From assembly GCF_900111365.1 (NCBI RefSeq), contig NZ_FOGZ01000013.1, forward strand, positions 1 to 64,000: DNA of 64,000 nucleotides, given 5' to 3'. The notes under the pieces are model-generated. The model did not search any database. It saw only the letters and a program-made list of their open reading frames with translations, and was not told the origin of the DNA. How positions within the stretch are numbered: position 1 is the stretch's first letter; each line of letters opens with the position of its first letter. Below are positions 43,128 through 59,151 of the stretch, in pieces. This DNA comes from Propionibacterium cyclohexanicum (GTDB lineage: Bacteria > Actinomycetota > Actinomycetes > Propionibacteriales > Propionibacteriaceae). Both the position numbers and the translations under genes were made by a program.

Positions 43128-43161
43128 ACCGTCTGTCACGCTCGGCCGAGGACCGGACTGC

Positions 43162-43498: not shown

Positions 43499-44593
43499 TC
43501 AGATGCTCTCCGGGTCGATCCCCTGCTCGACGACCCGGCGCGCCACCTCGCGAAGCTTGATGTTGCGGTTCTGGCTGGCCTGACGGAGCCGCTCGAATGC
43601 GGCGGCCGTTCCGATCCGGTAGCGCTCGACGAGGATACCGACGGCCTGGCCCACCAGCCGGTGGCTCTCGATTGCCTGTCCGAGATTCGCCTCGCGGTGA
43701 GCGGACATCTGCTCGGCGAGGACTCGGTCGACTGCCAGCGCGAAGGCCTGGGCAAGCAGGTCGGCGACGATCATCTCGTCGGGGCGGATGCGGCGAGGGC
43801 GCGGGAACTGCACCCAGACACGGCAGACCGACTTGGCGCTGTTGGGGACCAGCAGGATGCCGGGACGGGCATGGGTGGCATCGGCATTGCGCACCCCGAC
43901 CAGTCCCTCGCGAATCGACTCGGGCAGGTCGGCCAGATCGACGACCGTGCCGTCCCGCAGGGCCACCGGCTGCTCCTCGCCGATGTTCAGCTGGACGGTA
44001 CTGCCACCATCGAAGAGCACCCCGAAGCCGTGTTCGGCAACGCCGAGGACGGTGTCGATGTCCGCTGCTGCCACCAGATCGGTGCTGATCTGAGCCGCCC
44101 ACGCCCTGCGTTGACGGGCGTCCCGCTCCCGGGTGACATCGCGCATCAGGGCCAGCACCCTCGCCTCGCCGGTCTGTGGGTGGGCGGCGTGGAAGACATC
44201 GATCTCGACCCAGACCTTCTTGCGCTCCGTCGTGAAGAACAGGAGCTCACCACCGGTCTTCGTGCCGCTCAGGGCCTCGGCGAGGAAGCTCTCATTGCGG
44301 GCACGTGCCGTCGCGTCCTCGGCCTCGGTGGGCCACCACGGGTAGGGCGGCTGCCACGGACCATCGGCGAGGTCATATCCCACCATGTCCGTGAAGGACT
44401 GGTTGGCTTCCACCACGGTGCCGCCGCGCGTGAGGACGAGCAGCCCCTCTCGCATCACCCGGGACATGACCCAGAACCAGGCAACATTGACGCCGGTGTC
44501 CTCCTGGAGATTCGGATGCGCATCGACGAGCGAGGTCTGGTCCCCGATGCGAGGCTCCGGTAGGTCATCGTCAGTCGCTTGCCGCATGGTCAT
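43499..44593 (-). CDS. PAS-GAF-like-ANTAR regulator
   Basis: A 364-residue cytosolic regulator. A PAS domain (about residues 40-155, MREGLLVLTRGGTVVEANQSF and MVGYDL) is followed by a middle sensory region. At the end an ANTAR domain (about 305-360) has AIESHRLVGQAVGILVERY and AAFERLRQASQNRNIKLREVARRVV. ANTAR domains bind paired hairpins in RNA and prevent termination, so this may be a signal-responsive antiterminator; its RNA targets are not evident here. The start at 44593 (ATGACCATG) is a choice among nearby ATGs. No histidine kinase lies beside it. Confidence 0.85.
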   Translation of the reverse strand: MTMRQATDDDLPEPRIGDQTSLVDAHPNLQEDTGVNVAWFWVMSRVMREGLLVLTRGGTVVEANQSFTDMVGYDLADGPWQPPYPWWPTEAEDATARARNESFLAEALSGTKTGGELLFFTTERKKVWVEIDVFHAAHPQTGEARVLALMRDVTRERDARQRRAWAAQISTDLVAAADIDTVLGVAEHGFGVLFDGGSTVQLNIGEEQPVALRDGTVVDLADLPESIREGLVGVRNADATHARPGILLVPNSAKSVCRVWVQFPRPRRIRPDEMIVADLLAQAFALAVDRVLAEQMSAHREANLGQAIESHRLVGQAVGILVERYRIGTAAAFERLRQASQNRNIKLREVARRVVEQGIDPESI

Positions 44594-44739
44594 GGCATGT
44601 CCGCCCGTCCGTCCGTGGCCCATGCCCGGGGAGGTGACTGATCGGGCGGGTCGATGGCCACATCGTATAGCCGGGTCGCGGCGGGTATCCATGGGCCCGG
44701 CCCCCACTCGAGGACCTCGCTTCCCCTGCGCCAGGGCCC

Positions 44740-45681
44740 TCACAGGACCCCGATGCCGAGCTCGGCCACAGCAGCGAGCACCTGTGAGGGCCGCACCGCC
44801 ACGAGCGCCGGATCGGGCTCGGGCGAGTCGACCTCGCCGCGCCGCTGCGATTCGTCGGTGAGCACCCGATGCGGCCCCGGTGGCGGCCCCCACCGGGAGG
44901 CCGGGGCAGGTCCGAACAGCACCACCGACGGCCGCCGGTAGGCGCTGGCCAGGTGTGCGACCCCGGTGTCCGCGCTCACGACGAGGAGGCTGCCCGCCAC
45001 CAGGCCGGCCAACGCCGAGAGGTCGAGACGCCCGGCGAGCACCTCACCGGGCGGCAGGCCGGCGAGCCGGGCCACTTCGAGAGCCCGCGGACGCTCAGCG
45101 GCGTCACCGGTGATCACCACCCGGTGTCCCGCCCGCGCAAGCGCCCCAGCAACCTGCCCGAAGTGCCCCACCGGCCACAGCCGGCTGGCACTGCCGGCCC
45201 CGGGGTGCACTACGACCGCCCCGGGCACGACCAGGGATGCTGGGACATCCAGATCGACCTCCAGCGGATTCGCCTCGATGCCGTACCAGCCCAGCAGGCT
45301 CGTCCATCGTTCCCGTTCGTGCATCTGCTCCACCCATGCGGGCCCGTCCCAGGACGATCCGGCCGCCCGGCAGAGGTACCCGATTCGCCTTCGCGGCGCA
45401 AGCGCATCGAGCCGCTCATGGCTTTGGGGGCCCGCACCGTGCAGATTCACCGCGACATCGACAATGCCCGGCTCCAGCGGCACGGGCACCTCGAGCCCGA
45501 CCATGTCGAGCAGCTCGACACCCCCGATGAGCTCCACGATCGGGGCCAGCCAGGCCGGCGCCGCCAGCCGGAGCCGGTGTTCGGGGAAGGCACGGCCCAG
45601 CGCATGCAACGCCGGTACGGCGACGAGCAGGTCACCCAGCTTGAGAGCTCGCAGGACGAGCATCTGCGGTTGTCCAGCCAT
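44740..45681 (-). CDS. GT9 heptosyltransferase-like glycosyltransferase (first copy)
   Basis: A 313-residue GT-B fold protein of glycosyltransferase family 9, which in Gram-negatives transfers heptose from ADP-heptose to LPS core. The start LVLRALKLGDLLVAVPALHAL is the hallmark N-terminus. VVVHPGAGSASRLWP and the nucleotide-site VSADTGVAHLASAYRRPSVVLFGP are typical. AGGA precedes the ATG at 45681. It diverges from gmhB across 63 bases, with the rest of the heptose genes on the other strand. The acceptor is unknown, since this genome should have no LPS. Confidence 0.85.
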   Translation of the reverse strand: MAGQPQMLVLRALKLGDLLVAVPALHALGRAFPEHRLRLAAPAWLAPIVELIGGVELLDMVGLEVPVPLEPGIVDVAVNLHGAGPQSHERLDALAPRRRIGYLCRAAGSSWDGPAWVEQMHERERWTSLLGWYGIEANPLEVDLDVPASLVVPGAVVVHPGAGSASRLWPVGHFGQVAGALARAGHRVVITGDAAERPRALEVARLAGLPPGEVLAGRLDLSALAGLVAGSLLVVSADTGVAHLASAYRRPSVVLFGPAPASRWGPPPGPHRVLTDESQRRGEVDSPEPDPALVAVRPSQVLAAVAELGIGVL

Positions 45682-45744
45682 CCGGATCCTGTCCCTCCTC
45701 GACTGCGGCAGTTTCGCCCAGACCGCCCCGGGTACTCCCAGCAT

Positions 45745-46359
45745 GTGCCCAACACGCCCCTTGACCCCCTACCCCGCGCCGTGCTGTTCGATCGCGACGG
45801 CACGCTGGTGGTCGACACGCCCTACAACGGCGACCCCGCTCGGGTCCGACCGATGGCCGGTTCCGCAGTGGCGCTGAGCAGGATCCGCACGAGCGGCATC
45901 CCGGTCGGTCTCATCTCCAACCAGTCGGGGGTCGGGCGTGGGCTCATCACCACCGGGCAGCTCCAGGCCGTCACCGAGCGGGTGAATGCCCTGCTGGGGC
46001 CCTTCGCGGTGATCCTCAACTGCCCCCACCGGCCCGAGGACGGCTGCCTGTGCCGCAAGCCCGCCCCCGGCATGGTCATCGAGGCATGCCAGCAGCTGGG
46101 AGTGAGCCCACAGGAGACACTCGTCGTAGGCGACATCGGCTCCGACATGGCGGCGGCGCAGGCCGCCGGTGCCCAGGGCGTGCTCGTCCCCAACCGAGTC
46201 ACCCGCTATGAGGAGGTGCTCGCTGCACCCCGGGTCGCCCGCTCCCTGCTCGAGGTGGCCGAGCTCGTGTGCAATCCTCGGGTAGCTCACCGCGACGCAC
46301 GCGAGGAGCCGACGCGAGACCGGCCTGCTGCCGCGCGCACAGCAAAGGTACGGCCGTGA
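45745..46359 (+). CDS. gmhB: D-glycero-D-manno-heptose 1,7-bisphosphate phosphatase
   Basis: A 204-residue HAD phosphatase of the GmhB/histidinol-phosphatase type. Asp16 and Asp18 are in LFDRDGTLV, motif II is ISNQSG, and a zinc loop CPHRPEDGCLCRKPAPGM is diagnostic for this group. Motif IV is VVGDIGSDMAAAQAAG. It would remove the 7-phosphate between the kinase and adenylyltransferase steps of ADP-heptose synthesis. The start is a GTG at 45745, because no ATG in frame fits the domain. It is the first gene of a tightly overlapping plus-strand operon. Confidence 0.88.
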   Translation: MPNTPLDPLPRAVLFDRDGTLVVDTPYNGDPARVRPMAGSAVALSRIRTSGIPVGLISNQSGVGRGLITTGQLQAVTERVNALLGPFAVILNCPHRPEDGCLCRKPAPGMVIEACQQLGVSPQETLVVGDIGSDMAAAQAAGAQGVLVPNRVTRYEEVLAAPRVARSLLEVAELVCNPRVAHRDAREEPTRDRPAAARTAKVRP

Positions 46360-47417
46360 ACAGGGTCCTCGTCGCACGTCTCGACTCGCTCGGCGATGTC
46401 CTGCTCGCCGGTCCCGCGGTGCGGGCGGTGGCGGCTCGTCACCGGGTGACCATGCTGTGCTCACAGCAAGGCGCCCCCGCTGCGGGCCTGCTGCCCGGCG
46501 TCGCGCAGGTGCTCACCTGGCAGTGCCCGTGGATCGTGAACCCCTCCCCCGCGGTCAGGGCAGAGGATCTGGAGGACCTCGTGACCCGGATCGGGTCCCA
46601 CCGCTTCGACGAGGCAGTCATCCTCACCTCCTTCCACCAGTCGCCCCTGCCGCTGGCGCTCGCGCTGCGCCTTGCCGGTGTCCCCCGGGTCACCGGTGCC
46701 TCGGTCGACTACGCGGGAAGCCTGCTCGACATCCGGCTGCGACCCGGCGAGGACTTCCCCGAGGACGAGCCCGAGCCCGTTCGGGCCCTCACCATCGCTG
46801 CGGCGGCAGGCCATCGGCTACCTCCCGACGACGAGGGGCACTTGGCGGTGCGACCGACGGCCGAGCCCGCGCGGTGGGTCGGCGAGGGGCACTATGTCGT
46901 CGTCCACCCCGGCGCCAGCGCCGCGGCCCGTACCTGGCCTGCGCAGAACCATGGCGAGCTGGTGAGCCTGCTGGCCGCCGAAGGCCGCAAGGTGGTGGTC
47001 ACCGGCGGCCCGGGGGAGACCTCACTCACTGCATCGGTGGCCGGGAGGGCGGGTCTGGACCTGGGCGGCCGGCTCGACCTCCCGCAACTCGCCGCCGTGC
47101 TTGCCGGCGCCGACGCGGTGGTGGTCGGCAATACCGGTCCGGCGCACCTGGCTGCAGCGGTGGGGACCCCTGTGGTGAGCCTCTTCTCCCCGGTCGTGCC
47201 TGCGGTTCGCTGGGCACCCTATGGCGTGCCCGTCGAGCTGCTCGGCGACCAGGACGCGCCCTGCCGCGGTTCGCGCGCCCGCGAATGCCCCATTCCGGGC
47301 CACCCCTGCCTCAGCGAGGTCACCGCACACCAGGCGCTCGCGGCAGTGCACCGGCTCATCGGACCGGGCCCTCGGTCACCGATGACAGATCCAGATTCCC
47401 TGGCAGGTGCACGATGA
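46356..47417 (+). CDS. GT9 heptosyltransferase-like glycosyltransferase (second copy)
   Basis: A 353-residue GT9 enzyme with RVLVARLDSLGDVLLAGPAVRAV, VVVHPGASAAARTWP and VVGNTGPAHLAAAVGTPVVSLF. The GTG start overlaps the gmhB stop (GTGA) and has AAAGG upstream. The C-terminal part holds three Cys (CRGSRARECPIPGHPC). This matches GT9 proteins outside the LPS-forming phyla, where similar Cys-containing tails occur. It is expected to add heptose to a cell-envelope glycan or lipid. Its stop overlaps the next glycosyltransferase start. Confidence 0.85.
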   Translation: MNRVLVARLDSLGDVLLAGPAVRAVAARHRVTMLCSQQGAPAAGLLPGVAQVLTWQCPWIVNPSPAVRAEDLEDLVTRIGSHRFDEAVILTSFHQSPLPLALALRLAGVPRVTGASVDYAGSLLDIRLRPGEDFPEDEPEPVRALTIAAAAGHRLPPDDEGHLAVRPTAEPARWVGEGHYVVVHPGASAAARTWPAQNHGELVSLLAAEGRKVVVTGGPGETSLTASVAGRAGLDLGGRLDLPQLAAVLAGADAVVVGNTGPAHLAAAVGTPVVSLFSPVVPAVRWAPYGVPVELLGDQDAPCRGSRARECPIPGHPCLSEVTAHQALAAVHRLIGPGPRSPMTDPDSLAGAR

Positions 47418-48484
47418 GGATCCTGGTCTGGCATGTGCACGGTGGCTGGATGAACTCCTTCGTCCGGGGCCGCCACGAGTACCTCCTGCCCACGCTACCC
47501 GAAGGCGGCCCGTGGGGCTTGGGACGCGGCGGGCGTGACTGGCCGGCCAGCGCCCGCGAGTGCGCCCCGGGCCAGCTGCGCGAGGAGGATCTCGATGCGG
47601 TCGTGCTGCAGCGCCCCGAGGAGATCGCCCAGTGCCAGCGCCTCACCGGCCGCACGCCGGGCCGTGACCTGCCGGCGATCTACCTGGAGCACAACACGCC
47701 GAAGGGCCAGGTGCCGAGCAGCGTCCACCCCCTCGCCGACCAGGCCACCATCCCGATCGCGCACGTCACGCACTTCAACGAGCTGTTCTGGGACAACGGC
47801 CGCGCCCCGACGAGGGTCATCGAGCACGGCATCGTCGACCCCGGCGAGCAGTACACCGGTGAGCGCGCCTGCCAGTCGGTGGTGGTCAACGAGCCGGTCC
47901 GGCGCGGGAGGGTGACCGGCACCGACCTGCTGGCCCATTTCGCCCAACAGGCGCCGCTGGAGGTCTACGGGATGGGCACGGGCGCACTGAACGGCCTGGC
48001 TGGCCTGGGACCTGAGCGGGCCCACATCTGCGGAGACCTGCCCACGGCCGAACTGCATGCCCAGCTGGCCCGCACCCGGCTATACCTGCACCCGGTGCGC
48101 TGGACCTCGCTCGGGCTGTCCCTGCTGGAGGCCATGCATCTCGCGATGCCCGTAGTGGTGCTGGCGACCACCGAAGCGGTACGGGCCGTCCCCGCGGAGG
48201 CCGGCGCGATCTCCACCGATGTCGCCGAGCTCGCCCGCGCCGTGCGGATCCTCATCGCTGACCCTGAGGAGGCTCGACGACGAGGGCGCGTCGCTCGGGC
48301 AGCAGCCCTGTCCCGCTACGGGCTGGCCCGTTTCCTCGACGACTGGGACGAGCTGCTCAGCTCGGTGGTGTCGCAGCACCACAGCCACCGGACACGCCGC
48401 CAGCCGCAGGTGCATCAGCCCTCATCACGCGAAGACGGCGCCCGCAGCACGGCGCCTCGCAGCACGGAAGGGAGTTCACGATGA
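47414..48484 (+). CDS. Glycosyltransferase, GT4-like, in heptose cluster
   Basis: A 356-residue cytosolic glycosyltransferase. The N-terminus MRILVWHVHGGWMNSFVRG and the C-terminal segment LHPVRWTSLGLSLLEAMHLAMPVVVLAT fit a GT-B retaining enzyme of the GT4 type. A middle domain is shorter than usual. The last 35 residues are basic and disordered. The ATG overlaps the preceding stop and the stop overlaps the following ATG (ATGA twice), so it is embedded in the operon. Donor and acceptor are unknown. Confidence 0.78.
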   Translation: MRILVWHVHGGWMNSFVRGRHEYLLPTLPEGGPWGLGRGGRDWPASARECAPGQLREEDLDAVVLQRPEEIAQCQRLTGRTPGRDLPAIYLEHNTPKGQVPSSVHPLADQATIPIAHVTHFNELFWDNGRAPTRVIEHGIVDPGEQYTGERACQSVVVNEPVRRGRVTGTDLLAHFAQQAPLEVYGMGTGALNGLAGLGPERAHICGDLPTAELHAQLARTRLYLHPVRWTSLGLSLLEAMHLAMPVVVLATTEAVRAVPAEAGAISTDVAELARAVRILIADPEEARRRGRVARAAALSRYGLARFLDDWDELLSSVVSQHHSHRTRRQPQVHQPSSREDGARSTAPRSTEGSSR

Positions 48485-49752
48485 GAATCGCCATGGTCTC
48501 GGAGCATGCCAGCCCGCTTGCCGTGATCGGAGGAGTGGACGCCGGCGGCCAGAATGTCCATGTCGCCGAGCTGTCCGCCGCCCTGGGGCGGCGAGGTCAT
48601 CACGTGGTGGTCTACACCCGCCGTGACGATCCGACCCTGCCGGACCGGGTGGTTTTCGCGCCCGGCGTCGAGGTCGTGCACGTGGCTGCCGGCCCGGCGC
48701 TTCCGCTGCCGAAGGATCTCCTGTACCCCCACATGGATGCGCTCGCCCGTGGTCTGGCGTCCCAGTGGCGCGCAGAGCCTCCCGATGTCGTGCACGGGCA
48801 TTTCTGGATGTCGGGTGTCGCGGCCCTGCAGGCGGTACGGCTGGCCCAGACGCCGGATCGCCGTCCGCCCGTGGTGCAGACCTTCCACGCCCTGGGGACG
48901 GTGAAGCGTCGCCACCAGGGCCCGGCAGACACCAGCCCGCCGGAGCGCGCCATGCTCGAACCGCGGCTGGCCCGCGAGGTGGACCGGATCATTGCCACCT
49001 GTCCCGACGAGGTCCGCGAGTTGCGGGCCATGGGAGCCAGGCCCCGGCGCATCTCGGTGGCGCCCTGCGGGGTGGACCTCGGCCACTTCCGGGCCGAGGG
49101 CCCGTCCGAGCCCACTGGCGGCAGACGCCGGATCGCCGTGGTCGGACGTCTGGTGGCGCGCAAGGGTATCGACCTGGTGATCGCTGCCCTGCACGAGCTG
49201 GCCGCCGAGGGGATCGGCGATGTCGACCTCCACATCATCGGCGGGAGCAGCGTCGCTGCGGGGCTGGAGGCCGATCCGGAGGCCGGGCGACTGGCGCGGG
49301 AAGCCGTGGAGCTCGGGGTCGCCGATCAGGTGATCTTCCGAGGTCAGCTGCCCCGCGAGGAGATGCCGCAGGTCTTGCGCAGCTGCGCGGCGGTGGTCTG
49401 CGCCCCCTGGTACGAGCCCTTCGGGATCGTGCCCCTCGAGGCGATGGCCTGCGGCATACCGGTCGTCGTGAGCGCTGTCGGTGGCCTGCAGGATTCAGTC
49501 GTCGATGGTGTGACCGGCCTGCACGTTCGCCCGCGGGACCACCGCGCGCTCGCTGCGGCAATCCGCCGCATCCTCGATGATCCTTCCCTGGCCACACGGA
49601 TGGGGCGTGCCGGGCGGCACCGGGTGGAAAAGCACTACTCCTGGAACACCGTGGCCGAGCTGACCGAGCAGGCCTACCTGAGCTGTGTGGCCCAGCTTGG
49701 CGCCAGGCGCGCGAACGCTCCGCTGACGGCCCTCCTGGCGGTGGAGCCATGA
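48481..49752 (+). CDS. Glycosyltransferase family 4
   Basis: A 423-residue GT4 enzyme, well conserved. The N-terminal donor-acceptor region is MRIAMVSEHASPLAVIGGVDAGGQNVHVAEL, resembling MshA/sucrose-synthase-like transferases. VVHGHFWMSG is present. The C-terminal domain has VGRLVARKGID and EPFGIVPLEAMACGIPVV, with the catalytic E-X7-E pair. GGGAG lies upstream of the ATG. It is embedded in the heptose operon. It may build the glycan that the heptosyltransferases extend; no specific sugar can be assigned by eye. Confidence 0.9.
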   Translation: MRIAMVSEHASPLAVIGGVDAGGQNVHVAELSAALGRRGHHVVVYTRRDDPTLPDRVVFAPGVEVVHVAAGPALPLPKDLLYPHMDALARGLASQWRAEPPDVVHGHFWMSGVAALQAVRLAQTPDRRPPVVQTFHALGTVKRRHQGPADTSPPERAMLEPRLAREVDRIIATCPDEVRELRAMGARPRRISVAPCGVDLGHFRAEGPSEPTGGRRRIAVVGRLVARKGIDLVIAALHELAAEGIGDVDLHIIGGSSVAAGLEADPEAGRLAREAVELGVADQVIFRGQLPREEMPQVLRSCAAVVCAPWYEPFGIVPLEAMACGIPVVVSAVGGLQDSVVDGVTGLHVRPRDHRALAAAIRRILDDPSLATRMGRAGRHRVEKHYSWNTVAELTEQAYLSCVAQLGARRANAPLTALLAVEP

Positions 49753-50456
49753 CCATCCGTCCCATGGCGCCCCGGCGTCGCACCGGAAGTTTCGCGCCAC
49801 CGCCTCCCGCTCCCGCCAAGCCGGCCGAACTCGAGCTGGGCTGCCTGGTGGATGCCCATCTCGACGCGCACGTGCTCGCCGCGTCCTCGCTTCGTGCATC
49901 CTCGGGGCTGCTGGCGCGCTGGGGTGAGGTGCTGGCCGATCGGCTCCTCGCCGGGCACCGGCTGCTTGCCGCAGGCAATGGCGGCTCGGCGGCCGAGGCC
50001 CAGCATCTCACCGCCGAGCTGGTCGGGCGTTTCGACGGCGAGCGGAGGGCCTTCTCGGCGATCTCGCTGCACGCCGAGAGCTCGGCGCTCACGGCGATCT
50101 CCAACGACTACGGATATGACGATGTCTTCGCGCGCCAGGTGCAGGCGCACGGCCGCCCCGGCGACATCCTCATGCTCTTCAGCACGAGCGGTCGCAGCGT
50201 CAACCTGCTGCGCGCCGCGCAGGCCGGGCGCCAGGCGCGGCTCACCAGCTGGGCTCTGACCGGAAGCTCACCCAATCCCCTGGCGCACCTGGCCGATGAG
50301 ACCCTTGCTGTCGATGGGCCCGCGGCGAGCGCGCAGGAATGCCATCTCATTGCGCTGCACGCGCTGTGCCGGGCCTTCGACGCCCGGGTGGCCTGGCATG
50401 CGGCAGGGCAGGGGCCCGGACAAACCCGTCCGGTGCGGCGAGGAGATCGGGCATGA
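49749..50456 (+). CDS. gmhA: GmhA-like sedoheptulose 7-phosphate isomerase
   Basis: A 235-residue SIS-domain protein. LLAAGNGGSAAEAQHLTAELVGRF is the signature of GmhA, which isomerises sedoheptulose 7-phosphate to D-glycero-D-manno-heptose 7-phosphate. ISNDYGYDDVFARQV and LMLFSTSGRSVNLL complete the family pattern. About 35 Pro-rich N-terminal residues precede the normal start of the domain. It supplies the first step of ADP-heptose synthesis from the pentose phosphate pathway. It overlaps its neighbours by 4 bases on both sides. Confidence 0.87.
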   Translation: MTIRPMAPRRRTGSFAPPPPAPAKPAELELGCLVDAHLDAHVLAASSLRASSGLLARWGEVLADRLLAGHRLLAAGNGGSAAEAQHLTAELVGRFDGERRAFSAISLHAESSALTAISNDYGYDDVFARQVQAHGRPGDILMLFSTSGRSVNLLRAAQAGRQARLTSWALTGSSPNPLAHLADETLAVDGPAASAQECHLIALHALCRAFDARVAWHAAGQGPGQTRPVRRGDRA

Positions 50457-51895
50457 GGATCGTCGTCGTAGGCGATGTCCTGCTGGATCGCGATATCGGC
50501 GGTCCCTCCACCCGGCAGTGCCCGGATGCCCCCGCGCCGGTCATCGACGTGGCGCACTGCCTCGTGCGGGCAGGCGGGGCCGGGCTGACCGCACGGCTGC
50601 TGGCCCTTGATGGGCACTCCACCACACTGGTCACGGCGCTGTCCGACGACGAGGCCTCCCGGGAGCTGCGCAGCTGCCTGTCCGGGCTGACACTCGTCGC
50701 CGGCGGATCGAACGCGCCGACCCCTGTGAAGACCCGGGTGCTGCACTCGGGCCGCGTCCTCGCCCGGCTCGACGAGGGCTGCCAGCCCACGTCGCCCCCG
50801 GTGGTCACCGCCGAGATGATCGACGCCCTGGCCGCTGCCGACGCGATCCTCGTCAGCGACTACGGGCGCGGGCTGAGCGCCGATCCCGGACTGCGGGCAG
50901 CGCTGGCGCACCAGGCCCGCCGGGTGCCGCTCGTGTGGGACCCCCACCCGCGCGGCGCCGAGCCTGTCGCGGGAGCAGCGGCGGTGACACCGAACCTGCG
51001 CGAGGCCCTCGGGGCTGCGGGTACTGATCTGGGGCCCGACGCGAACATCGGCGCGGTGGCCGCCGCGTTGAGACAGCGCTGGCGCTGCCAGGCTCTCGTC
51101 GTGACGCTCGGGGACGCCGGCGCATGGCTCGACTCCGGGCCGGACGACGGCCGGGCCCTGGCGGCGGTCCCGCTGGACGGGGTGGACACCTGCGGCGCCG
51201 GGGACCGGTTCGCCTCCCGGCTCGCTGCAGGCCTGGCCGAGGCCGGCCGCGGGCACAGACCCGCAGCCCAGCCGGGCATCGTCGATGCGGTGAGCGAGGC
51301 CATCGCCGCGACCGGGAGCTTCCTCCGGGCCGGCGGGGTGGCCGCCCTGCCGGCCCCGCCAACACCCCGCTGGACGCCACCGGGCGCATCATCCCTGCGC
51401 GCTCCGGCGCCGCAGCGGGCCGGCCGCGCACGCGAACTGGTGAGCCGGCTTCACGCGACCGGCGGCACCGTGGTGGCCACCGGCGGCTGCTTCGACCTGC
51501 TTCACGCAGGACATCTGCGGACCCTGCGCGCCGCCCGCGCGCAAGGCGATGCGCTGATCGTCTGCCTCAACTCCGATCGGTCGGTGCGGGCCCTCAAGGG
51601 CCCCCAGCGCCCGCTGATGGGTCAGGAGGAGCGCGCGGAGCTGCTCGAAGCGCTGGACTGCGTCGACGCCGTCGTCGTCTTCGACGAGGACACCCCCGTT
51701 CAGGTGCTCACCGAGCTGCGGCCGGACGTCTGGGTCAAGGGCGGGGACTACGTCGTCGAGCTGCTTCCCGAATACGAGCTCGTCACCGGCTGGGGCGGTC
51801 GCTGCGCGACAGTGCCCTTCCACCCCGGCCACTCGACGTCCTCGCTCGTCACGGCGCTGGAGCGGATCGGACCGGACGCCGCGGTGCCCGGCTGA
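50453..51895 (+). CDS. hldE: HldE-like bifunctional heptose kinase/nucleotidyltransferase
   Basis: A 480-residue two-domain enzyme. The PfkB/ribokinase-type kinase (residues 1 to about 300) begins RIVVVGDVLLDRDIGGPSTR and has the catalytic DTCGAGDRF. The nucleotidyltransferase (about 345-480) carries GGCFDLLHAGHLRTL with the HAGH motif, LNSDRSVRALKGP, VKGGDY and GHSTSSLV. In Gram-negatives HldE phosphorylates heptose 7-phosphate at C1 and later joins AMP. The kinase half is less conserved than in the paralogue at 52992-55379: the usual Gly-Gly-Ala-Asn of the substrate loop reads GGAGLTA. Last gene of the overlapping plus-strand run. Confidence 0.88.
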   Translation: MRIVVVGDVLLDRDIGGPSTRQCPDAPAPVIDVAHCLVRAGGAGLTARLLALDGHSTTLVTALSDDEASRELRSCLSGLTLVAGGSNAPTPVKTRVLHSGRVLARLDEGCQPTSPPVVTAEMIDALAAADAILVSDYGRGLSADPGLRAALAHQARRVPLVWDPHPRGAEPVAGAAAVTPNLREALGAAGTDLGPDANIGAVAAALRQRWRCQALVVTLGDAGAWLDSGPDDGRALAAVPLDGVDTCGAGDRFASRLAAGLAEAGRGHRPAAQPGIVDAVSEAIAATGSFLRAGGVAALPAPPTPRWTPPGASSLRAPAPQRAGRARELVSRLHATGGTVVATGGCFDLLHAGHLRTLRAARAQGDALIVCLNSDRSVRALKGPQRPLMGQEERAELLEALDCVDAVVVFDEDTPVQVLTELRPDVWVKGGDYVVELLPEYELVTGWGGRCATVPFHPGHSTSSLVTALERIGPDAAVPG

Positions 51896-51963
51896 GCCGA
51901 GGCACGGGGATTTCATCCCATGAGAGGCACCAAGACCTCATCCCATCACTCGAGGAGACACAC

Positions 51964-52701
51964 ATGACCACAGTGCACGCCGAAGAATTCACCGATACCG
52001 CGCCCTCCGCCACCCGCAGCCCCGGTCGCGTCCTTGTCACCGGCGGGGCATCGGGGCTGGGGGCCGCCGTGGTGGCCGCCGTCGCCGGGGCGGGCGGGAC
52101 TCCCGTGGCCCTCGATCTGGCGCCGGGCCCCGGCACATCCGCCACCTGGAATCAGGTTGACGTCACCGACCGGGTGGCCGTCGAGGATGCCGTGACGCAG
52201 GCCGCCGAGCGGCTCGGCGGACTCGACGCTGTCGTCACAGCGGCGGGCATCGACCGGTGCGGCCGGCTGCTGGACGTGCCCGCCCAGCAGTGGGAGCACG
52301 TCGTCCAGGTGAATCTCTTCGGCACCGTGAACACGGTGCGGGCCGCGCTGCCCCACCTGCTGGCCACCCACGGCCGGGTCGTCACGGTCGCCTCGACGCT
52401 GGCGCTTCGCGGGGTCTCCGACGCAACCGCCTACTGCGCCTCGAAGTTCGCCGTGCTCGGTTTCAGCCAGGCACTCACCGCCGAAACCGCCGGGCAGGTG
52501 GGTGTCACCACGCTCATCCCAGGCGGCATGGACACGCACTTCTTCGACGGGCGCACCGAACAGTACCGCCCCACCGACAACTCGCAGCTCAATGACCCGG
52601 CCAGGGTGGCGCAGGCCGTGCTCTTCGCGCTGTCCCAGCCACGCGGCTGCGAGATCCGCCAGCTGTTCATCGCCCACGAGAACGAGCCCTCCTGGCCCTG
52701 A
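51964..52701 (+). CDS. Classical short-chain dehydrogenase in heptose cluster
   Basis: A 245-residue SDR with VTGGASGLGAAV, a shortened Asp loop, the catalytic Ser in VASTLALRG and YCASK. It is a classical single-domain SDR, not the roughly 310-residue extended type of the heptose 6-epimerase HldD. It may reduce or oxidise a sugar intermediate or lipid in the pathway. CGAGGAG lies before the ATG. A 68-base gap separates it from hldE, so it may belong to the same transcript. Confidence 0.82.
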   Translation: MTTVHAEEFTDTAPSATRSPGRVLVTGGASGLGAAVVAAVAGAGGTPVALDLAPGPGTSATWNQVDVTDRVAVEDAVTQAAERLGGLDAVVTAAGIDRCGRLLDVPAQQWEHVVQVNLFGTVNTVRAALPHLLATHGRVVTVASTLALRGVSDATAYCASKFAVLGFSQALTAETAGQVGVTTLIPGGMDTHFFDGRTEQYRPTDNSQLNDPARVAQAVLFALSQPRGCEIRQLFIAHENEPSWP

Positions 52702-52735
52702 GCCAGGGCGCCGGCGAAGACCAGGAGGGCGGCAG

Positions 52736-52915
52736 TCACTTCCGGCGGGCCGGGGCCCGATCCTCGGGTCCGGCCTGCTCCTCGTCCGCCTCGCCCGCCG
52801 CGCGCCTGGCCTTCTCCACCGGCTCCTCGTCCGGGCCCGCCGCTCCTGAGACCACGCTCCTGGCCCTGTTCACGGCGTCCTTGGCGGTGTCCTTGGCCTT
52901 CTCGACGATCCCCAT
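52736..52915 (-). CDS. Small charged amphipathic protein (CsbD/antitoxin-like)
   Basis: A 59-residue very hydrophilic protein, MGIVEKAKDTAKDAVNRARS followed by Glu/Asp/Arg-rich sequence, which suggests one amphipathic helix and a disordered tail. The N-terminus resembles small stress proteins such as CsbD, and also MT0933-like antitoxins, but neither match is secure. GGAAGGG lies upstream of the ATG at 52915. It lies between the ends of the converging SDR gene and the start region of nothing else, 76 bases after the trifunctional sugar gene on the same strand. Confidence 0.55.
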   Translation of the reverse strand: MGIVEKAKDTAKDAVNRARSVVSGAAGPDEEPVEKARRAAGEADEEQAGPEDRAPARRK

Positions 52916-52991
52916 GATCAGTTTCCCTTCCGCGATCGATCCCCCGGCCGGGCCGGCCGCCAGGATGTCCTTCTCGGGCCTGTGCACGTGC

Positions 52992-55379
52992 TCACGCATC
53001 GGCTCGCCGCCCCAGCTCAGCGCGATCGGTACGCGGCAGTCCGCGCCCCGGGCGCTCGAACAGCGTCCTGGCGTCCACCCGACGCTCATCAACCGTCGTG
53101 CGCGACTCCAGGTGGACGGCGCCGGAGGGCACGATGCCCGCGCCACCCCTGATCGCCATGACACGCCACTGGGCCAGGACGTCCTCGCCGCTGTGGTCCG
53201 GCGGCAGGTCCTGCCAGAATCCGAAACCGCCGGCCTCGACGAGCACCGCCCGGTCGTACAGGACGCATCCGCCCACCCAGGCCACCCGGTAGGTCGCCGC
53301 CGCGCCGGGCGGGAGCCCGAGCCGTACGGCAAGGTGGGCGAGATTGGCGGCGTTGTGCAGCGGCCAGCGTCGCTCCACCTGGCTGCCCAGCCCGGCCTCC
53401 TCGGGCTCGACCGGGCCCTCCCACAATTCGAATTCCTCCTCCTGCACCGGGCGGGCATCGCCCAGATAGGACAGCCCCTGGACGGCCTCCCCGACGAAGC
53501 CCGCGCCGCTGTCCCGAAGGACCCGGCACATCACCTCGAGCTGGCCCGGCTCGAGCCAGACGTCGTCGTCGAGGAAGAGCACCTGGCGCGCCTCGGGCGC
53601 ACCTCGCAGGGAGAGCTCGAGCAGGTGGGCGCGCTGCTGGGCCATGCCGCGTCGAGGCATGTTGCGGTCCAGCACGACCGGATGGCCCTGGGCACGCAGC
53701 ACCCGCAGCATCGCTGCCGCGGCCGGATGCTGCCAGTCGGGGCTCTGCGCGCTCTGGTCGCTGATCACCACGCGGAATCCTGGCCGATCCTGGCCGGCCA
53801 GGCCAGCCAGGGTCACGGCCAGCTCGGCGGGACGCTCGCAGGTGGGCACCAGCACGTCAAGCTGACCGCCGCTCAGACCCCTCGCACCGGTGGCCGCCCA
53901 CTCCCCGGCCGTGCGCCGCTGGATCGGGCGGGGTCCGGGGCGACGCATTCGCTCGATCATGGCGCTGGTGGAGTGCCCAGCGGTATATCCCACCATCCGC
54001 ACCTGGCCGCCGGCATCGTGCACGGCGCTGACCTCGGGTCCGAGCATCGACTCGGCGTAGTCGCCGCCCTTCACATAGACATCGGGGCGGATCGCCTCGA
54101 TGAGTGCCACCGGGGTGTCCTCCTCGAAGCCTGCCACCAGATCGACCGAGGCCAGGGCCGTCAGCATCGCCGCCCGGTCCTCGAATCCGTTCACGGGCCG
54201 GCCCGGGCCCTTGAGCCGGCGCACCGAGTCGTCGGAGTTCAGCCCTACGACCAGCAGATCACCCAGGCCCCGGGCCTGCTCGAGATAGCCGACATGGCCG
54301 CGGTGCAGGATGTCGAAGCAGCCGTTGGTGAAGACGATGCGCCGGCCAGCTGCCCGCTCCCGGGCGATCCGCGCGGCGATCCGGCGCCGATCCCACAGCA
54401 CCGCGCTGGCCCGCATCGACTCCGCGTCACAGGTTGCGGTCCCGGGCCGACTCGTCACCACATCGGCTGCCGCCTGGGCGAAGTCGACGGCTGCCCGCAC
54501 TGGGGCCTCGACAGCGAGGGCGAGGACCAGAGCGGCGTCGAAGCTGTCGCCGGCGCCCACCGCGTCGGTATCCGGTGCGGGCCGGGCGTGGGTACGGTGC
54601 AGCTCCTGGTCGCGGGTCATGGCCACTGCTCCGTCGCGGTCCAAGGTGAGCACCACCATGGCTGCGCCGCAGGCGTCGACCAGCTCCTCGCGCCGGGCCC
54701 GGGCCAGATCGGCCCGGTCCTGTGCACCGGCCGGCTCATCGGCCAGCAGCCTGCAGCACTCCTGCCAGTTGGGCGTCACGAGATCTGGCGAGAGCTCGCG
54801 CCAGGCCGCCAGCTCGTGGGCGTCCACGGCGAGCAGACGGGGACGCGGGCCGCGGCCAAGGGCGCCGCGAATGGCCGACGCGGCCCCGAGCCCGTAGTCG
54901 CAGACGAGCACGCTGAGCTGCGGGTCGCCGAGTATGCCAGACACCCGTTCGGCCAGCTCGTCGCCGAGCGAGTCGGCGGGCGGTCCGCCGGTCCCCTCGT
55001 CCACCCGCGCCAGGATGACCCCCTGGGAGGAGATCCGGGTCTTGCGCGCCGTCGTGGCGCCGGGCTGGCGCAGTATCGCAGCGGTGCCGACACCCGCCTG
55101 GTCGAGCAGGCCGACGAGCCGGCGCCCGGCCTCGTCCTCGCCGACCACCCCACACAGCTCGACGCGCGCCCCCAGCGCGGCGAGCGCGACCGCGGTGTTG
55201 CCCGCCCCTCCGGGGAAGCACTGGCGAGCCTGGGCGCGGACCACCGGCACCGGGGCCTCGCGGGACAGCGCCGTGCTGGGGCCCGACCACCACTCGTCCA
55301 AGATCACATCGCCGCAGACCAGTACTCGCGGGCGCCGGTCTGCGATCCGCTCAAGAATCCGTGTCAGCTCATCCCTCAT
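52992..55379 (-). CDS. Three-domain sugar kinase - nucleotidyltransferase - GT2 glycosyltransferase
   Basis: A 795-residue fusion. The HldE-like kinase (about residues 1-320) has VLVCGDVILDEWWSGPSTALSREAPVPVV, FPGGAGNTAVALAALGA and DAVGAGDSF. The nucleotidyltransferase (about 345-490) has NGCFDILHRGHVGYL, LNSDDSVRRLKGPGRP, VKGGDY and GHSTS. A GT2-type glycosyltransferase (about 503-795) then starts LDVLVPTCERPAELAVTL, with a metal-binding FLDDD at about 601 and WVGGCVLYDRAVLVEAGGF. All three domains keep their key motifs. It could make a nucleotide-activated heptose and use it directly. The start at 55379 overlaps the aldehyde dehydrogenase stop by 11 bases. Confidence 0.87.
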   Translation of the reverse strand: MRDELTRILERIADRRPRVLVCGDVILDEWWSGPSTALSREAPVPVVRAQARQCFPGGAGNTAVALAALGARVELCGVVGEDEAGRRLVGLLDQAGVGTAAILRQPGATTARKTRISSQGVILARVDEGTGGPPADSLGDELAERVSGILGDPQLSVLVCDYGLGAASAIRGALGRGPRPRLLAVDAHELAAWRELSPDLVTPNWQECCRLLADEPAGAQDRADLARARREELVDACGAAMVVLTLDRDGAVAMTRDQELHRTHARPAPDTDAVGAGDSFDAALVLALAVEAPVRAAVDFAQAAADVVTSRPGTATCDAESMRASAVLWDRRRIAARIARERAAGRRIVFTNGCFDILHRGHVGYLEQARGLGDLLVVGLNSDDSVRRLKGPGRPVNGFEDRAAMLTALASVDLVAGFEEDTPVALIEAIRPDVYVKGGDYAESMLGPEVSAVHDAGGQVRMVGYTAGHSTSAMIERMRRPGPRPIQRRTAGEWAATGARGLSGGQLDVLVPTCERPAELAVTLAGLAGQDRPGFRVVISDQSAQSPDWQHPAAAAMLRVLRAQGHPVVLDRNMPRRGMAQQRAHLLELSLRGAPEARQVLFLDDDVWLEPGQLEVMCRVLRDSGAGFVGEAVQGLSYLGDARPVQEEEFELWEGPVEPEEAGLGSQVERRWPLHNAANLAHLAVRLGLPPGAAATYRVAWVGGCVLYDRAVLVEAGGFGFWQDLPPDHSGEDVLAQWRVMAIRGGAGIVPSGAVHLESRTTVDERRVDARTLFERPGRGLPRTDRAELGRRADA

Positions 55380-56811
55380 CGCCGACGCCTCCCGGGGCCG
55401 CGACGCCGGGGATGCGGGCCGGCGCAATGTGGACGACCTTCACGACGGTCATCTCGTCGAGCAATCCGGGACCGTAGCCACAGCCGTTTCCGCTGGCCCC
55501 TCGGGGGGTCGCCGACCCGCCGGGCGCACCTCCGAAGACCTCGTTGATCTTGACGGTGCCCACGCACAGCTCTTCGACGGCCCGCTGGGCATGGGCGAGA
55601 TCGGGCGTGAGCACGGTCGCCGCGAGGCCGTAACGGTCCTGGCTGGCCAGGGCGAGGCCCTCCTCGAAACTGCCGACGACCTGGATCGGCGCGATCGGCC
55701 CGAAGGTCTCCTCGCGGGTGAGCTCCATGTCGGGGCGGCAATCCGTGATCACCGTCGCCGGGTAGTGGAAGCCCGGCCCCTGCCCGATCTCGCCGCCGAC
55801 GAGGATCCGTGCCCCGGCCCGGGCTGCCGCATCCACCTGGGCGTGCACCCTCTCGCGCAGTGCCCCGTCCACGAGCGGGCCGAGCTCACCGGATTCGTTG
55901 ATCTGCTCAGCCTGGTGCACCAGGGCGTCGACCACCGGCCCGGCCACCGACTCATGCACGTAGACCCGCTCCACCGAGGTGCAGACCTGCCCGCTGTTGG
56001 CGAAGGCGCCCAGCGCGATCTGGGCCGCGGCCCACTGCGGGTCGACGCCTGCATCGACGACAAGGGGGTCGTTGCCGCCGTTCTCGAGCACGAGGTGGAC
56101 GCCGCTGTCCGCGGTCAGCCGCTGGATCTTGCGTCCGGTCGAGCTCGAGCCGATGTGGGCGACCACTCCGACGAGCGGGTGGGAGACCAGGGCGGCGCCG
56201 AGGGCCGGGCCCCCGGTCAGGGTCTGTACGACCCCCTCGGGCAGGCACTCGGTGAGGATCCGGCCGAACTCGCGGCCCAGCCGCGGGCAGTGCTCGCTCG
56301 GCTTGAGGATGAGGCAGTTCCCGGTGACCAGCGCCGCGGCCGCCAGCTCGCAGGCGACTGCCACCGGGTCGTTCCAGGGTGTCAGGGCCACTGCGACCCC
56401 GCGCGGCTCGCGGCGGCTGTAGTCGCTGCAATAGGCCTGCCCGGCCAGCCGGGTGCCGCCGTGCATGGTGCCCAGGACGGCGGTGCTGCGCAGTGTCGCT
56501 ACCCCGGCCCTGATGCCGTCAATCGCCTCACCGGTGGGCCGCCCGGTCTCGCGCGTGTTGATCTCGGCCAGCTGTGCAGCCCGCGCCTCCAGCAGGCCGG
56601 CCGCCTCGGTCAGCCTGGACGACCTATCCGCGGCAGCGGTACGTGCCCAGCCGGGCTGGGCACGCCAGGCTCGCCGGATCGCCTCGTTCGCAGTCTCGGG
56701 CGTGTCGACGGCCACGGTGTCCACCACGCTCCCGTCACGCGGATCGACGACGGTGAGCACGCCCTCCTCGGGGATCGTCGCGTCGTGCTCGGTGAAAGTG
56801 GGTACGGACAT
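55369..56811 (-). CDS. Aldehyde dehydrogenase family protein
   Basis: A 480-residue NAD(P)-dependent aldehyde dehydrogenase with TPWNDPVAVACELAAAALVTGN and KPSE for cofactor binding. The catalytic Glu is in LENGGNDP, a slightly altered form of ELGG, and the catalytic Cys in SGQVCTSVERV. EETFGPIAPI completes the signature. It is translationally coupled to the sugar fusion gene downstream (11-base overlap) and preceded by GGAGG. A role in converting a sugar aldehyde is inferred only from context. Confidence 0.88.
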   Translation of the reverse strand: MSVPTFTEHDATIPEEGVLTVVDPRDGSVVDTVAVDTPETANEAIRRAWRAQPGWARTAAADRSSRLTEAAGLLEARAAQLAEINTRETGRPTGEAIDGIRAGVATLRSTAVLGTMHGGTRLAGQAYCSDYSRREPRGVAVALTPWNDPVAVACELAAAALVTGNCLILKPSEHCPRLGREFGRILTECLPEGVVQTLTGGPALGAALVSHPLVGVVAHIGSSSTGRKIQRLTADSGVHLVLENGGNDPLVVDAGVDPQWAAAQIALGAFANSGQVCTSVERVYVHESVAGPVVDALVHQAEQINESGELGPLVDGALRERVHAQVDAAARAGARILVGGEIGQGPGFHYPATVITDCRPDMELTREETFGPIAPIQVVGSFEEGLALASQDRYGLAATVLTPDLAHAQRAVEELCVGTVKINEVFGGAPGGSATPRGASGNGCGYGPGLLDEMTVVKVVHIAPARIPGVAAPGGVGDEG

Positions 56812-56925
56812 GGTGCCTCCTGCGTGTGGTCTCGTGCGTGCCACTTACCCCGGCAGCAATCGCTCACACCTGCGATGCGCCGCACCACCACCCCGCCCAC
56901 CGCCGACTCCCGGAGCCTGATCCCC

Positions 56926-58035
56926 ATGGATGCTGCCGAACCCTTCACCGATGTGCACCGCATCGTCGTCCTGCGCGCAGGCGGGCTGGGGGATCTGCTG
57001 TTCACCGTCCCGGCTCTCCACGCCCTCCACGAGAGCTATCCGCAGGCCTCGATCGAGATCCTCGGCGCCCCAGTGGCTGCGCTGCTGGAAGGCCGGCTGC
57101 CCTTCCCGGTGACCACCCGGCGGCTGCCCCCGGTGGCCGGTGTGACAGCGCCGCCGGATCGGCCGACCGACGTGAGTGACTTCGTGGCGACGATCACGCA
57201 ACAGCCGATCGACCTGGCAGTCCAGTTGCACGGCGGCGGCCGGTTCTCGAACCCCTTCCTGCTCTCGCTCGGGGCGCGCCACACGGTGGGCTGCGCCACC
57301 GACGACGCCGACGCTCTCGAGCGGACCCTGCCCTATCGCTTCTACCAGCACGAGGTGGCGCGTGATCTCGAGGTGGTCGGCCTCGCGGGCGCGCTGACGA
57401 TGATGCGCGAACCCCGGCTCGCGCCACTCGACGAGGACCTGGCACGAGCCGACCAGGCGCTCGGCATCACGGCAGAGGGCCACTCCCCGCTGGTCGTCCT
57501 GCACCCGGGAGCGACCGATCCCCGCCGGCGCTGGCCGGTGGGCAACTTCGCCCAGCTCGCGTCCGCGCTCGCCCGCGAGGGCGCCCAGGTGGCCGTGATC
57601 GGTGACCGGAGCGAGCAGGAGCTTGCCGAGGCCGTCGTGAGGGAGGCAGAGGCCCGGGGCGGGTCGGCCGGCCGCTCCCCCGTCGTCTCGCTGGCTGGGC
57701 GCCTTGGGCTGGGCGGGCTGACCGGGCTGCTCGCCCGGGCCGATCTCGTGGTGGCCAACGACTCCGGCCCCCGCCACCTTGCCGACGCGCTGGGCACCGC
57801 GACCTGCTCGGTGTACTGGTGCGGCAATGTCATCACGGCCGGTCCGCAGACCCGACTGCGCCACCGCATCCGCATTGCCTGGGTCACCAGCTGCCCGGTG
57901 TGCGGGGTCGACGTCACCCAGGTGGGCTGGACCGCTCAACGATGCCCGCACGATCCGTCGTTCGTGGCGAGTGTTGGTGTCGACGCCGTGCTCGAGGACG
58001 CCCGGTCGCTGCTCGGCTCGGGTGTTGCCCACTGA
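56926..58035 (+). CDS. GT9 heptosyltransferase-like glycosyltransferase (third copy)
   Basis: A 369-residue GT9 enzyme with IVVLRAGGLGDLLFTVPALHAL, VVLHPGATDPRRRWP and VVANDSGPRHLADALGTATCSVYW. The C-terminal tail has Cys residues (SCPVCGVDVTQ and QRCPHD), as in other non-LPS GT9 proteins. The start may be ATG 56926, with GGAG about 10 bases upstream, or an earlier ATG at 56875. It diverges from the aldehyde dehydrogenase gene. It is the third GT9 enzyme of the cluster; together they may add successive heptose units to one acceptor or act on different ones. Confidence 0.85.
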   Translation: MDAAEPFTDVHRIVVLRAGGLGDLLFTVPALHALHESYPQASIEILGAPVAALLEGRLPFPVTTRRLPPVAGVTAPPDRPTDVSDFVATITQQPIDLAVQLHGGGRFSNPFLLSLGARHTVGCATDDADALERTLPYRFYQHEVARDLEVVGLAGALTMMREPRLAPLDEDLARADQALGITAEGHSPLVVLHPGATDPRRRWPVGNFAQLASALAREGAQVAVIGDRSEQELAEAVVREAEARGGSAGRSPVVSLAGRLGLGGLTGLLARADLVVANDSGPRHLADALGTATCSVYWCGNVITAGPQTRLRHRIRIAWVTSCPVCGVDVTQVGWTAQRCPHDPSFVASVGVDAVLEDARSLLGSGVAH

Positions 58036-58049
58036 TCGGGCCCGGATAT
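58024..58049 (+). promoter_or_regulatory. Possible SigB/SigF-type promoter of second Gsp39-like gene
   Basis: GTTG (58024-58027), a 16-base spacer and GGATAT (58044-58049) lie about 60 bases upstream of the start at 58111. It is a loose match to GTTT-N15-GGGTAT. Confidence 0.25.
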
Positions 58050-58110
58050 CGTCCCTTCACCGCCAGCCGAAACTTCGGCGCACAGGCCCGCAGTGTGCTT
58101 GCCTGGAAGC

Positions 58111-59007
58111 ATGTCCAGAAGCCAGTACACGTTCGAGAATCCAGTGACCCGCTATCCCCAGGTCGAGGCTCCCGAGGAGCAGGTGCCCGAGCCTGGCCAC
58201 GACACGCAACTGACTCCATCGGCCGACCACGGCGAGGAGACCTACCGGGGCTCCTCGCGCCTGGTGGGGCGAAAGGCCCTCATCACCGGCGGTGATTCCG
58301 GAATCGGGGCGGCGGTGGCCATCGCCTTCGCCCGCGAGGGCGCCGACGTGGCGTTCACCTATCTGCCCGAGGAGGAGGACGACGCCCAGCACGTGCGCAA
58401 CCAGGTCGAAACGGCCGGGCACAAGGCCGTGCTCATCCCGGGCGATCTTTCGCACAGCTCCTTCTGCTCCCAGGCGGTGAGCACCGCAGTACGCGAACTC
58501 GGCGGGCTCGACATCCTGGTCAACAATGCGGGCAAGCAGCTGTACTGCACCGACATCGTCGACCTGCCCGACGAGCAGTTCGAGCAGACCATGCGCACCA
58601 ATGTCTTTGCGCTGTTCCACCTCACCAAGGCCGCAGTGCCCCATCTGAGACCCGGCTCGACGATCATCAACACCACCTCGGTGCAGGCCTACCTGCCCTC
58701 CCCCATCCTGCTCGACTACGCCACCACGAAGGCCGCCATCAACGGGTTCACCAAGGCGCTCGCCGCGCAGCTTGCCCCCAAGGGCATCCGCGTCAATGCC
58801 GTGGCACCTGGTCCGATCTGGACTCCGCTGCAGCCCAGCGGCGGCCAGCCCAACGAGAAGCTGGCCCACTTCGGCTCCCAGACCCCGCTGGGACGCAGCG
58901 GCCAGCCCGCCGAACTGGCACCCGCCTATGTCTTCCTGGCCTCGCCCGAGTCGAGCTATGTGGCCGGCGAGACGCTCGCGGTGACCGGGGGAATGCCCAC
59001 CCCCTGA
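58111..59007 (+). CDS. Gsp39-type short-chain dehydrogenase (second copy)
   Basis: A 298-residue SDR with ITGGDSGIGAAVA, NNAG, INTTSVQAY and YATTKAA, and the same stress-protein-39 lead (PSADHGEETYRGSSRL) as the gene at 42249. DNA of the two genes is also similar; for example, they share an identical stretch of 18 bases within the cofactor region. The ATG at 58111 has GGAAGC close by, but a GTG at 58093 is possible. Substrate unknown. A long hairpin follows the stop. Confidence 0.88.
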   Translation: MSRSQYTFENPVTRYPQVEAPEEQVPEPGHDTQLTPSADHGEETYRGSSRLVGRKALITGGDSGIGAAVAIAFAREGADVAFTYLPEEEDDAQHVRNQVETAGHKAVLIPGDLSHSSFCSQAVSTAVRELGGLDILVNNAGKQLYCTDIVDLPDEQFEQTMRTNVFALFHLTKAAVPHLRPGSTIINTTSVQAYLPSPILLDYATTKAAINGFTKALAAQLAPKGIRVNAVAPGPIWTPLQPSGGQPNEKLAHFGSQTPLGRSGQPAELAPAYVFLASPESSYVAGETLAVTGGMPTP

Positions 59008-59097
59008 GCAGGCGAGCAGCACGCTGGCGTGTCGGCGATCCCGGCCGCGCGGCGAACCATCGCAGTCCCGATGGCGGGCCAGCGACGGACCTGACGC

Positions 59098-59132: not shown

Positions 59133-59151
59133 GGCCTGTCGGGAACTCAGC

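Follow-up and report, generated by a model that had tools for sequence, protein, structure and literature searches.

The cwg operon of Streptomyces coelicolor (sco6179-6190), which is reportedly to be credited to Hong et al. 2002, is the described system to which the locus treated here comes closest. It is described as a 12-gene 'putative cell wall glycan' operon which is induced by vancomycin, depends partly on sigma-E and responds to antibiotics that act on the wall. Among its genes, SCO6179-6190, one is listed as a phosphoheptose isomerase and another as a bifunctional synthase/transferase (PMC5839063), cwgE is labelled a putative heptosyl transferase (PMC5882110), and cwgA is cited as a SigE target and was reported in 2026 to be induced by salt (PMC13011467). 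The published sigma-E promoter is placed 147 bases ahead of the start codon. Here we compare this operon with a cluster of 11 genes at positions 44740-58035 of a 64,000-nucleotide stretch of the Propionibacterium cyclohexanicum genome (assembly GCF_900111365.1, contig NZ_FOGZ01000013.1, positions 1 to 64,000), hereafter the window. Judged by gene order and homology, the window cluster is a cwg-like variant, distinct from the cwg operon proper.

The 11 genes, whose starts are in-frame ATG or GTG codons picked by us, encode GmhA, GmhB, two HldE, three GT9 and two GT4-type proteins, a short-chain dehydrogenase/reductase (SDR) and an aldehyde dehydrogenase (ALDH). At their centre is a forward-strand run of six: a GmhB-like HAD phosphatase of the heptose 1,7-bisphosphate 7-phosphatase type (45745-46359; HAD E 1.4e-14), the heptosyltransferase-like GT9b (46356-47417; PF01075 E 1.7e-24), a divergent, predicted GT4-type glycosyltransferase used below as the cluster marker and called GTx (47414-48484; PF13692 E 3.1e-10), a Pfam-supported GT4 glycosyltransferase (48481-49752), a GmhA-like sedoheptulose 7-phosphate isomerase (49749-50456; SIS E 2.6e-20) and HldE1, a cwg-type bifunctional kinase/nucleotidyltransferase with PfkB and CTP_transf domains and an altered GGAxN site (50453-51895). 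Each of the five junctions from GmhB to HldE1 is an exact 4-base overlap, one GTGA and four ATGA. A further heptosyltransferase-like gene, GT9a (44740-45681, reverse strand; PF01075 E 1.1e-20), diverges from this run on the other side of GmhB. Beyond HldE1 lie the classical SDR oxidoreductase (51964-52701, forward; PF00106 E 4.3e-38), a second HldE fused to a GT2 domain (52992-55379, reverse; PfkB 2.2e-31, CTP_transf_like 5.6e-19, Glycos_transf_2 9.4e-07), the ALDH (55369-56811, reverse; PF00171 E 2.7e-109), which overlaps the fusion by 11 bases, and the heptosyltransferase-like GT9c (56926-58035, forward; PF01075 E 1.7e-24). A sequence-only reading of this stretch had listed GmhA-, HldE- and GmhB-like genes, three GT9 genes and two further glycosyltransferases, many of them coupled by 4-base overlaps. 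All of these are present, each with Pfam support, and the overlaps are as described; its gene count was too low, having missed the second HldE, the GT2 domain, the SDR and the ALDH.

Comparison with solved structures agrees with these assignments. GmhA matches phosphoheptose isomerase (E 6.1e-37); GmhB, in which the C-x-H...C-x-C stretch is retained, is closest to the D,D-heptose 1,7-bisphosphate phosphatase 4pnh; GT9b is closest to LPS (lipopolysaccharide) heptosyltransferase 1 (6dfe/2gt1, E 5.6e-9); and for both HldE proteins the nearest entries, one per half, are the putative cytidylyltransferase 5x9q and the heptose 7-phosphate kinase 4e84. The catalytic motifs GAGD of the kinase and HxGH of the nucleotidyltransferase are present in HldE1 and HldE2 alike. 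An alignment of 15 GTx rows spanning four phyla has 39 invariant columns. The fusion is a single frame of 795 residues, HldE2 occupying about residues 1-488 and GT2 about 489-795, and is seen in this genome only among the loci collected; in other loci holding both (L142, L020 and L035, for example) the two are separate genes, and the fusion may be an assembly error joining two genes.

The tie to cwg was made through its promoter. When 0-2 mismatches are allowed, 6 of 295 genomes from a single genus in the same class as the window genome contain it, and it is exact over 29/29 positions once, in an 8.63 Mb genome (G851) that we infer to be S. coelicolor or a close relative. There, 147 bases separate promoter and first open reading frame (ORF), as published, and the genes that follow are UXS-carbamoyltransferase-bGT-GmhB-GT9b-GTx-GT4-GmhA-HldE1-GT9a, assigned by homology (bGT being a GT2-family protein), and two GT2 genes assigned by Pfam, which brings the total to the twelve of cwg; about 0.7 kb between the HldE frame and the GT9a match holds no assigned gene. 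Since the published promoter stands upstream of the same genes, the window cluster can be linked to the cwg operon. GmhB-GT9-GTx-GT4-GmhA-HldE occur in the same order in both, each with a second GT9. Over the seven shared genes the window proteins are 44-60% identical to the copy behind the exact promoter; GT9b is 58% identical to its counterpart in L227, the locus from the cwg operon genome, and GT9a 49% identical to the GT9 that follows HldE1 there. The promoter and gene matches do away with the notion of an undescribed cluster, and the 'undescribed' polymer of the sequence-only reading is not upheld: the cluster is real, well conserved and widespread, and in Streptomyces it has already been described as a putative operon.

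The window variant nevertheless differs from cwg in several respects. It is without the head genes UXS, carbamoyltransferase and bGT: the carbamoyltransferase family PF16861 has no match in the whole window genome, the best UXS match lies elsewhere in the genome and is only 31% identical, and a search of the window for bGT finds nothing at E 1e-6. Even with up to 8 mismatches allowed, the cwg promoter is not found in 43001-59000. Compared with the two GT2 genes that end cwg, the window GT2 domain gives no relative at E 1e-4. GT9a, the second GT9, is divergent and upstream of GmhB, and the SDR, ALDH, GT9c and HldE2-GT2 fusion are additions.

A quick, midpoint-rooted tree of HldE proteins resolves three clades: HldE1 (38 rows; Shimodaira-Hasegawa-like approximate likelihood ratio test support 100), in which the window HldE1 stands together with the HldE of L227; HldE2 (24 rows; 97), which groups the window HldE2 with the HldE of Chloroflexota, Cyanobacteriota and Bacteroidota clusters; and canonical HldE (25 rows; 100). 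Of 56 actinobacterial loci, 50 supplied an HldE row and 38 of these an HldE1 row, while L181, L187, L190, L213, L214 and L215 supplied none; two rows whose best hit had marked them as HldE2 were reassigned to HldE1 after the tree, and five long-branched rows of a third type (L204, L205, L208, L209 and L211) were excluded before the clades were counted. These five form a clade of their own from one other actinobacterial family (f21), in loci ordered GmhA-GmhB-HldE-GT9-GT9-GTx-GT4-SDR, with ALDH following in three. Two further irregularities were seen among HldE genes: three Planctomycetota loci (L062, L066 and L086) have a full HldE and, nearby, a second HldE-like piece, and in one locus (L140, genome G196) HldE1 matches in two pieces, the chosen ORF having 255 residues, so that this copy may be interrupted.

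HldE1 retains the catalytic Asp and HxGH in 38/38 rows. The diagnostic columns were chosen for differing, and the rows that served to choose them also served for the counts. Where GGAxN has its Asn, 37/38 HldE1 rows have Leu and the other has Met, whereas all 24 HldE2 and all 25 canonical rows have Asn; within the window, HldE2 keeps the Asn and HldE1 has Leu. At other such columns of HldE1, Asp replaces the aromatic residue that follows LDR (37/38, with one gap), Arg replaces the Thr that follows GAGD (31/38) and Gly replaces the Asn of the nucleotidyltransferase TNG motif (38/38). The Arg of the STTR5 rule, as we read that rule in a commentary, is found in 26/38 HldE1, 11/24 HldE2 and 1/25 canonical rows, and both window proteins have His there. 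In PfkB kinases the GGAxN Asn contacts the sugar. The substrate of HldE1 may thus differ from LPS heptose, or at least fit differently, and HldE1 and HldE2 probably serve different heptose substrates. The changed residues are the main reason against equating the product with LPS heptose; given the altered GGAxN site and the lack of an HldD over cut-off, D-glycero-D-manno-heptose is not settled as the sugar. A wider proposal is that Actinomycetota, Chloroflexota, Cyanobacteriota, Bacteroidota and Burkholderiales share an LPS-independent heptose-glycan system in which HldE1, with its kinase pocket changed from Asn to Leu, Tyr to Asp and Thr to Arg and the entry to its nucleotidyltransferase from Asn to Gly, is the source of an activated sugar new to bacteria, the window organism making two different sugars with HldE1 and HldE2 side by side. 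We offer this tentatively and regard it as somewhat doubtful.

Conservation of the cluster was assessed with GTx as the sole search key. In a sample of 396 Actinomycetota genomes, with only matches at E 1e-40 or better listed, GTx is present in at least 40, the window genome included; 39 score at least 372 bits and one is partial at a contig end. Among the 30 loci of at least 15 kb (38 were fetched), HldE, GT9 and GT4 each occur in 30/30, GmhB in 28/30, GmhA in 27/30 and carbamoyltransferase in 24/30, and 26/30 have GmhA, HldE, GmhB, GT9 and GT4 together. The SDR is usual, not constant (24/30, and 27 of all 38). The common actinobacterial order is carbamoyltransferase-bGT-GmhB-GT9b-GTx-GT4-GmhA-HldE1-SDR-GT9a. 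In 40 control stretches, taken at preset positions in 31 cluster-bearing genomes, GmhA, HldE, GmhB, GT9 and GTx are found in 0/40 at E 1e-10 and GT4 in 1/40, so that the co-occurrence is not due to chance. Within the family of the window organism, an HldE over the TIGR02199 cut-off is present in 13/198 genomes, its own among them.

For other neighbours, 42 loci selected by HldE2, TIGR02199 or GTx were set against the same controls; their core-family rows are not independent of that selection, and the GTx-chosen loci above were used for those families instead. ALDH is found in 12/42 loci against 2/40 controls (p 0.004) and a relative of the sigma factor described below in 7/42 against 0/40 (p 0.007), both values being uncorrected for 24 comparisons. 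Zn-dependent alcohol dehydrogenase (5/42 against 2/40) and YhdF-type SDR (5/42 against 8/40) are not enriched in Actinomycetota, which weakens the idea of a general stress island that the neighbours in Burkholderia, on a Streptomyces plasmid and in the window had suggested.

Beyond Actinomycetota, at least seven of the 80 HldE-bearing loci kept from 586, many of them short, contain GTx: two in Cyanobacteriota, two in Chloroflexota and three in Bacteroidota. In a plasmid collection GTx is on 14 records, including Burkholderia, Paraburkholderia, Caballeronia and Cupriavidus. All families are present in the Cyanobacteriota and Chloroflexota loci L020, L022 and L023, and parts only in those of Bacteroidota and Burkholderiales. 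In Burkholderia multivorans and Paraburkholderia (L216 and L220) the set reads GmhB-GT9-carbamoyltransferase-GT-GT9-GTx, with neither GmhA nor HldE matched in the 31 kb covered, and sits amid stress-type genes (DUF892, CsbD, Mn catalase, hemerythrin); the LPS pathway may supply the heptose donor there. A Streptomyces linear plasmid (L221) carries a cwg-type operon with ANTAR, STAS, PP2C and CsbD genes on its flanks. A GAF-type ORF was noted by eye in 5/62 cluster loci, L135, L194, L197 and L217 being listed beside L221, and a PAS-ANTAR gene lies next to the window cluster.

In the window genome LpxC has 0 matches and HldD stays under its cut-off of 274.6 bits, the best score being 101.4. We therefore reject an LPS remnant or an outer-membrane lineage, and the claim that an actinobacterium lacking LPS carries an ADP-heptose-type pathway together with heptosyltransferase-like enzymes is supported. 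The three GT9 matches in the genome all lie inside this cluster. The cluster itself is part of a genomic island of about 19 kb (39817-59151) bounded by a malQ-like GH77 gene and by one that we call pntB-like, the pnt names being our own assignment from sequence. In the same-genus genome G003 the two flanking genes are only about 1.3 kb apart, and a search of the site at E 1e-8 found none of the island genes in G001, G002 or G003; it follows that the window carries an island, and the heptose/glycan gene set appears to have been imported with it. Nor is an HldE over the TIGR02199 cut-off found anywhere in those three genomes. G+C reaches 0.726 over the glycan genes (44601-58035), falls to about 0.68 elsewhere in the island and is 0.663-0.667 beyond its ends. 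The site holds about 9 kb in G002 and about 17 kb in G001 of other DNA, against 19 kb in the window, and is thus variable in the genus; no tRNA was found at the site in the G001-G003 stretches.

At the left end of the island lies a sigma-70-family factor (39865-41040, reverse; Sigma70_r2, r3 and r4), a possible regulator. It is followed by three island genes with at most a possible link to the glycan, a Zn-dependent alcohol dehydrogenase (41031-42212, forward) an SDR (42249-43127, forward) and the PAS-ANTAR protein (43499-44593, reverse; ANTAR E 1e-17, PAS_4 E 4.1e-09). In the same genome (G000:C40) two equal-scoring sugar epimerase genes (71031-71801 and 74687-75457) stand 3.7 kb apart and are apparently a duplication.

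With a probability of roughly 60%, we consider that the cwg-like island makes one or more nucleotide-activated heptoses, which are assembled with other sugars into an oligosaccharide or glycolipid of the cell envelope. GmhA would convert sedoheptulose 7-phosphate to heptose 7-phosphate, the kinase domain of an HldE would phosphorylate C1, GmhB would take off the 7-phosphate, and the nucleotidyltransferase domain of an HldE would activate the sugar to a nucleoside diphosphate (NDP)-heptose. In the absence of HldD the cell would use the D,D form directly, with no epimerase step. Heptoses would then be added by GT9a, GT9b and GT9c and other sugars by GTx, GT4 and the GT2 domain, giving a short glycan on an acceptor in the envelope, the SDR and ALDH oxidising or reducing one of the sugars. 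The product might have a role in envelope or osmotic stress.

Several results weigh against this assignment. Nearly all NCBIfam equivalog cut-offs for the heptose pathway and heptosyltransferases are missed: the GmhA, GmhB and full-length HldE models all score under them and the GT9 proteins far under those for LPS, although for rfaE_dom_II, the nucleotidyltransferase domain, HldE2 passes (189.8 against 181.5 bits) and HldE1 is slightly under (180.4). The cluster proteins are therefore diverged relatives, with functions suggested by family, motif and company. No sigma-E-like site ([GC]AAC-N15-18-[CG]GTC) occurs in the six stretches scanned, 45400-45800 included, and the portions of the cwg literature examined name no cwg product. 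Flippase, polymerase and export genes are absent from the window cluster, and neither flippase nor polymerase was recognised, by eye, among the 12 families recurring in at least 5/62 loci. An envelope location, lipid anchoring and export are suggested mainly by analogy, from the cwg literature and the roles of GT9 elsewhere. On the supporting side, a BacA-type gene, which we take from its family to be an undecaprenyl-carrier enzyme, adjoins HldE2 in three related genomes (L133 in G139, L135 in G130 and L137 in G133; 3/42 loci against 0/40 controls) and hints at a lipid carrier there. Of the heptose-containing wall polymer, glycolipid or glycoprotein once suggested for this locus, a glycan is sensible; a wall polymer is not settled, no flippase or polymerase being recognised near the clusters.

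That same lack favours the main rival, a soluble oligosaccharide or glycoside, serving as stress solute or storage sugar and forming no part of the wall. From their families, all eleven proteins look cytosolic. The NCBIfam model nearest to GT4, at 229.9 bits against a cut-off of 462.5, is that of MshA, an enzyme with a soluble acceptor. The salt induction of cwgA and the stress-type surroundings of the Burkholderia multivorans/Paraburkholderia set point the same way. GT9 enzymes, however, are known from membrane-anchored acceptors. The response of cwg to wall antibiotics, partly through sigma-E, and the BacA-type gene in three related clusters also fit a soluble product poorly, and the actinobacterial Zn-dependent alcohol dehydrogenase and YhdF-type SDR neighbours are not more frequent than in the control stretches. 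On this balance we think a soluble product rather unlikely.

Two other fates for the heptose can be considered. Hygromycin B is made by actinobacteria from heptose precursors. Septacidin is likewise made by actinobacteria, from NDP-heptose, according to a commentary, and a secondary-metabolite cluster in which heptose decorates a small molecule would have such precedents; it would be expected neither to be conserved across many Actinomycetota families and other phyla nor to be without a scaffold, aminotransferase, resistance or tailoring gene, none of which is among the 11 (as judged from families), and we find this highly improbable. Heptosylation of surface proteins by the GT9 enzymes, for which aah of E. 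coli is a precedent, is also highly improbable: the 11 genes include no adhesin or other obvious acceptor, and six glycosyltransferase domains suggest a longer glycan. An envelope oligosaccharide or glycolipid is the reading we prefer.

What is new here is the window variant, the relation across phyla, the HldE1 subfamily, the distribution of GTx and the absence of the island from its site in three same-genus genomes; the first three were not found in the literature searched, which was limited in extent. A heptose-pathway reading, with gene-by-gene ties to other phyla, gives concrete enzymes to assay and a class of sugar to seek, and the old question of the cwg product is now open to testing. 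If Gram-positive envelopes do contain heptose, this would bear on heptose sensing by ALPK1, the subject of a commentary.

Two comparisons beyond cwg place the window cluster further. With the LPS inner-core pathway (GmhA-HldE-GmhB-HldD-WaaC/F) it shares the GmhA, HldE, GmhB and GT9 families, but its genome has neither LpxC nor an HldD over cut-off and its GT9 proteins are far from the LPS models. The second comparison is with clusters in Chloroflexota and Cyanobacteriota (L022, L020 and L023) that read GT9-GTx-GT4-GmhA-SDR-GmhB-HldE-GT9-GT2, and of which partial versions are seen in L035, L019, L025 and L028. These have the same families, an HldE2-like enzyme and a GT2 gene; unlike the window, they have a single HldE, an unfused GT2 and, in L022, L020 and L023, all genes on one strand, and L035 and L028 also hold a carbamoyltransferase. 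By homology, then, the window cluster appears to unite a core like that of cwg with an extra HldE2-GT2 half that resembles the clusters of Chloroflexota, Cyanobacteriota and Bacteroidota.

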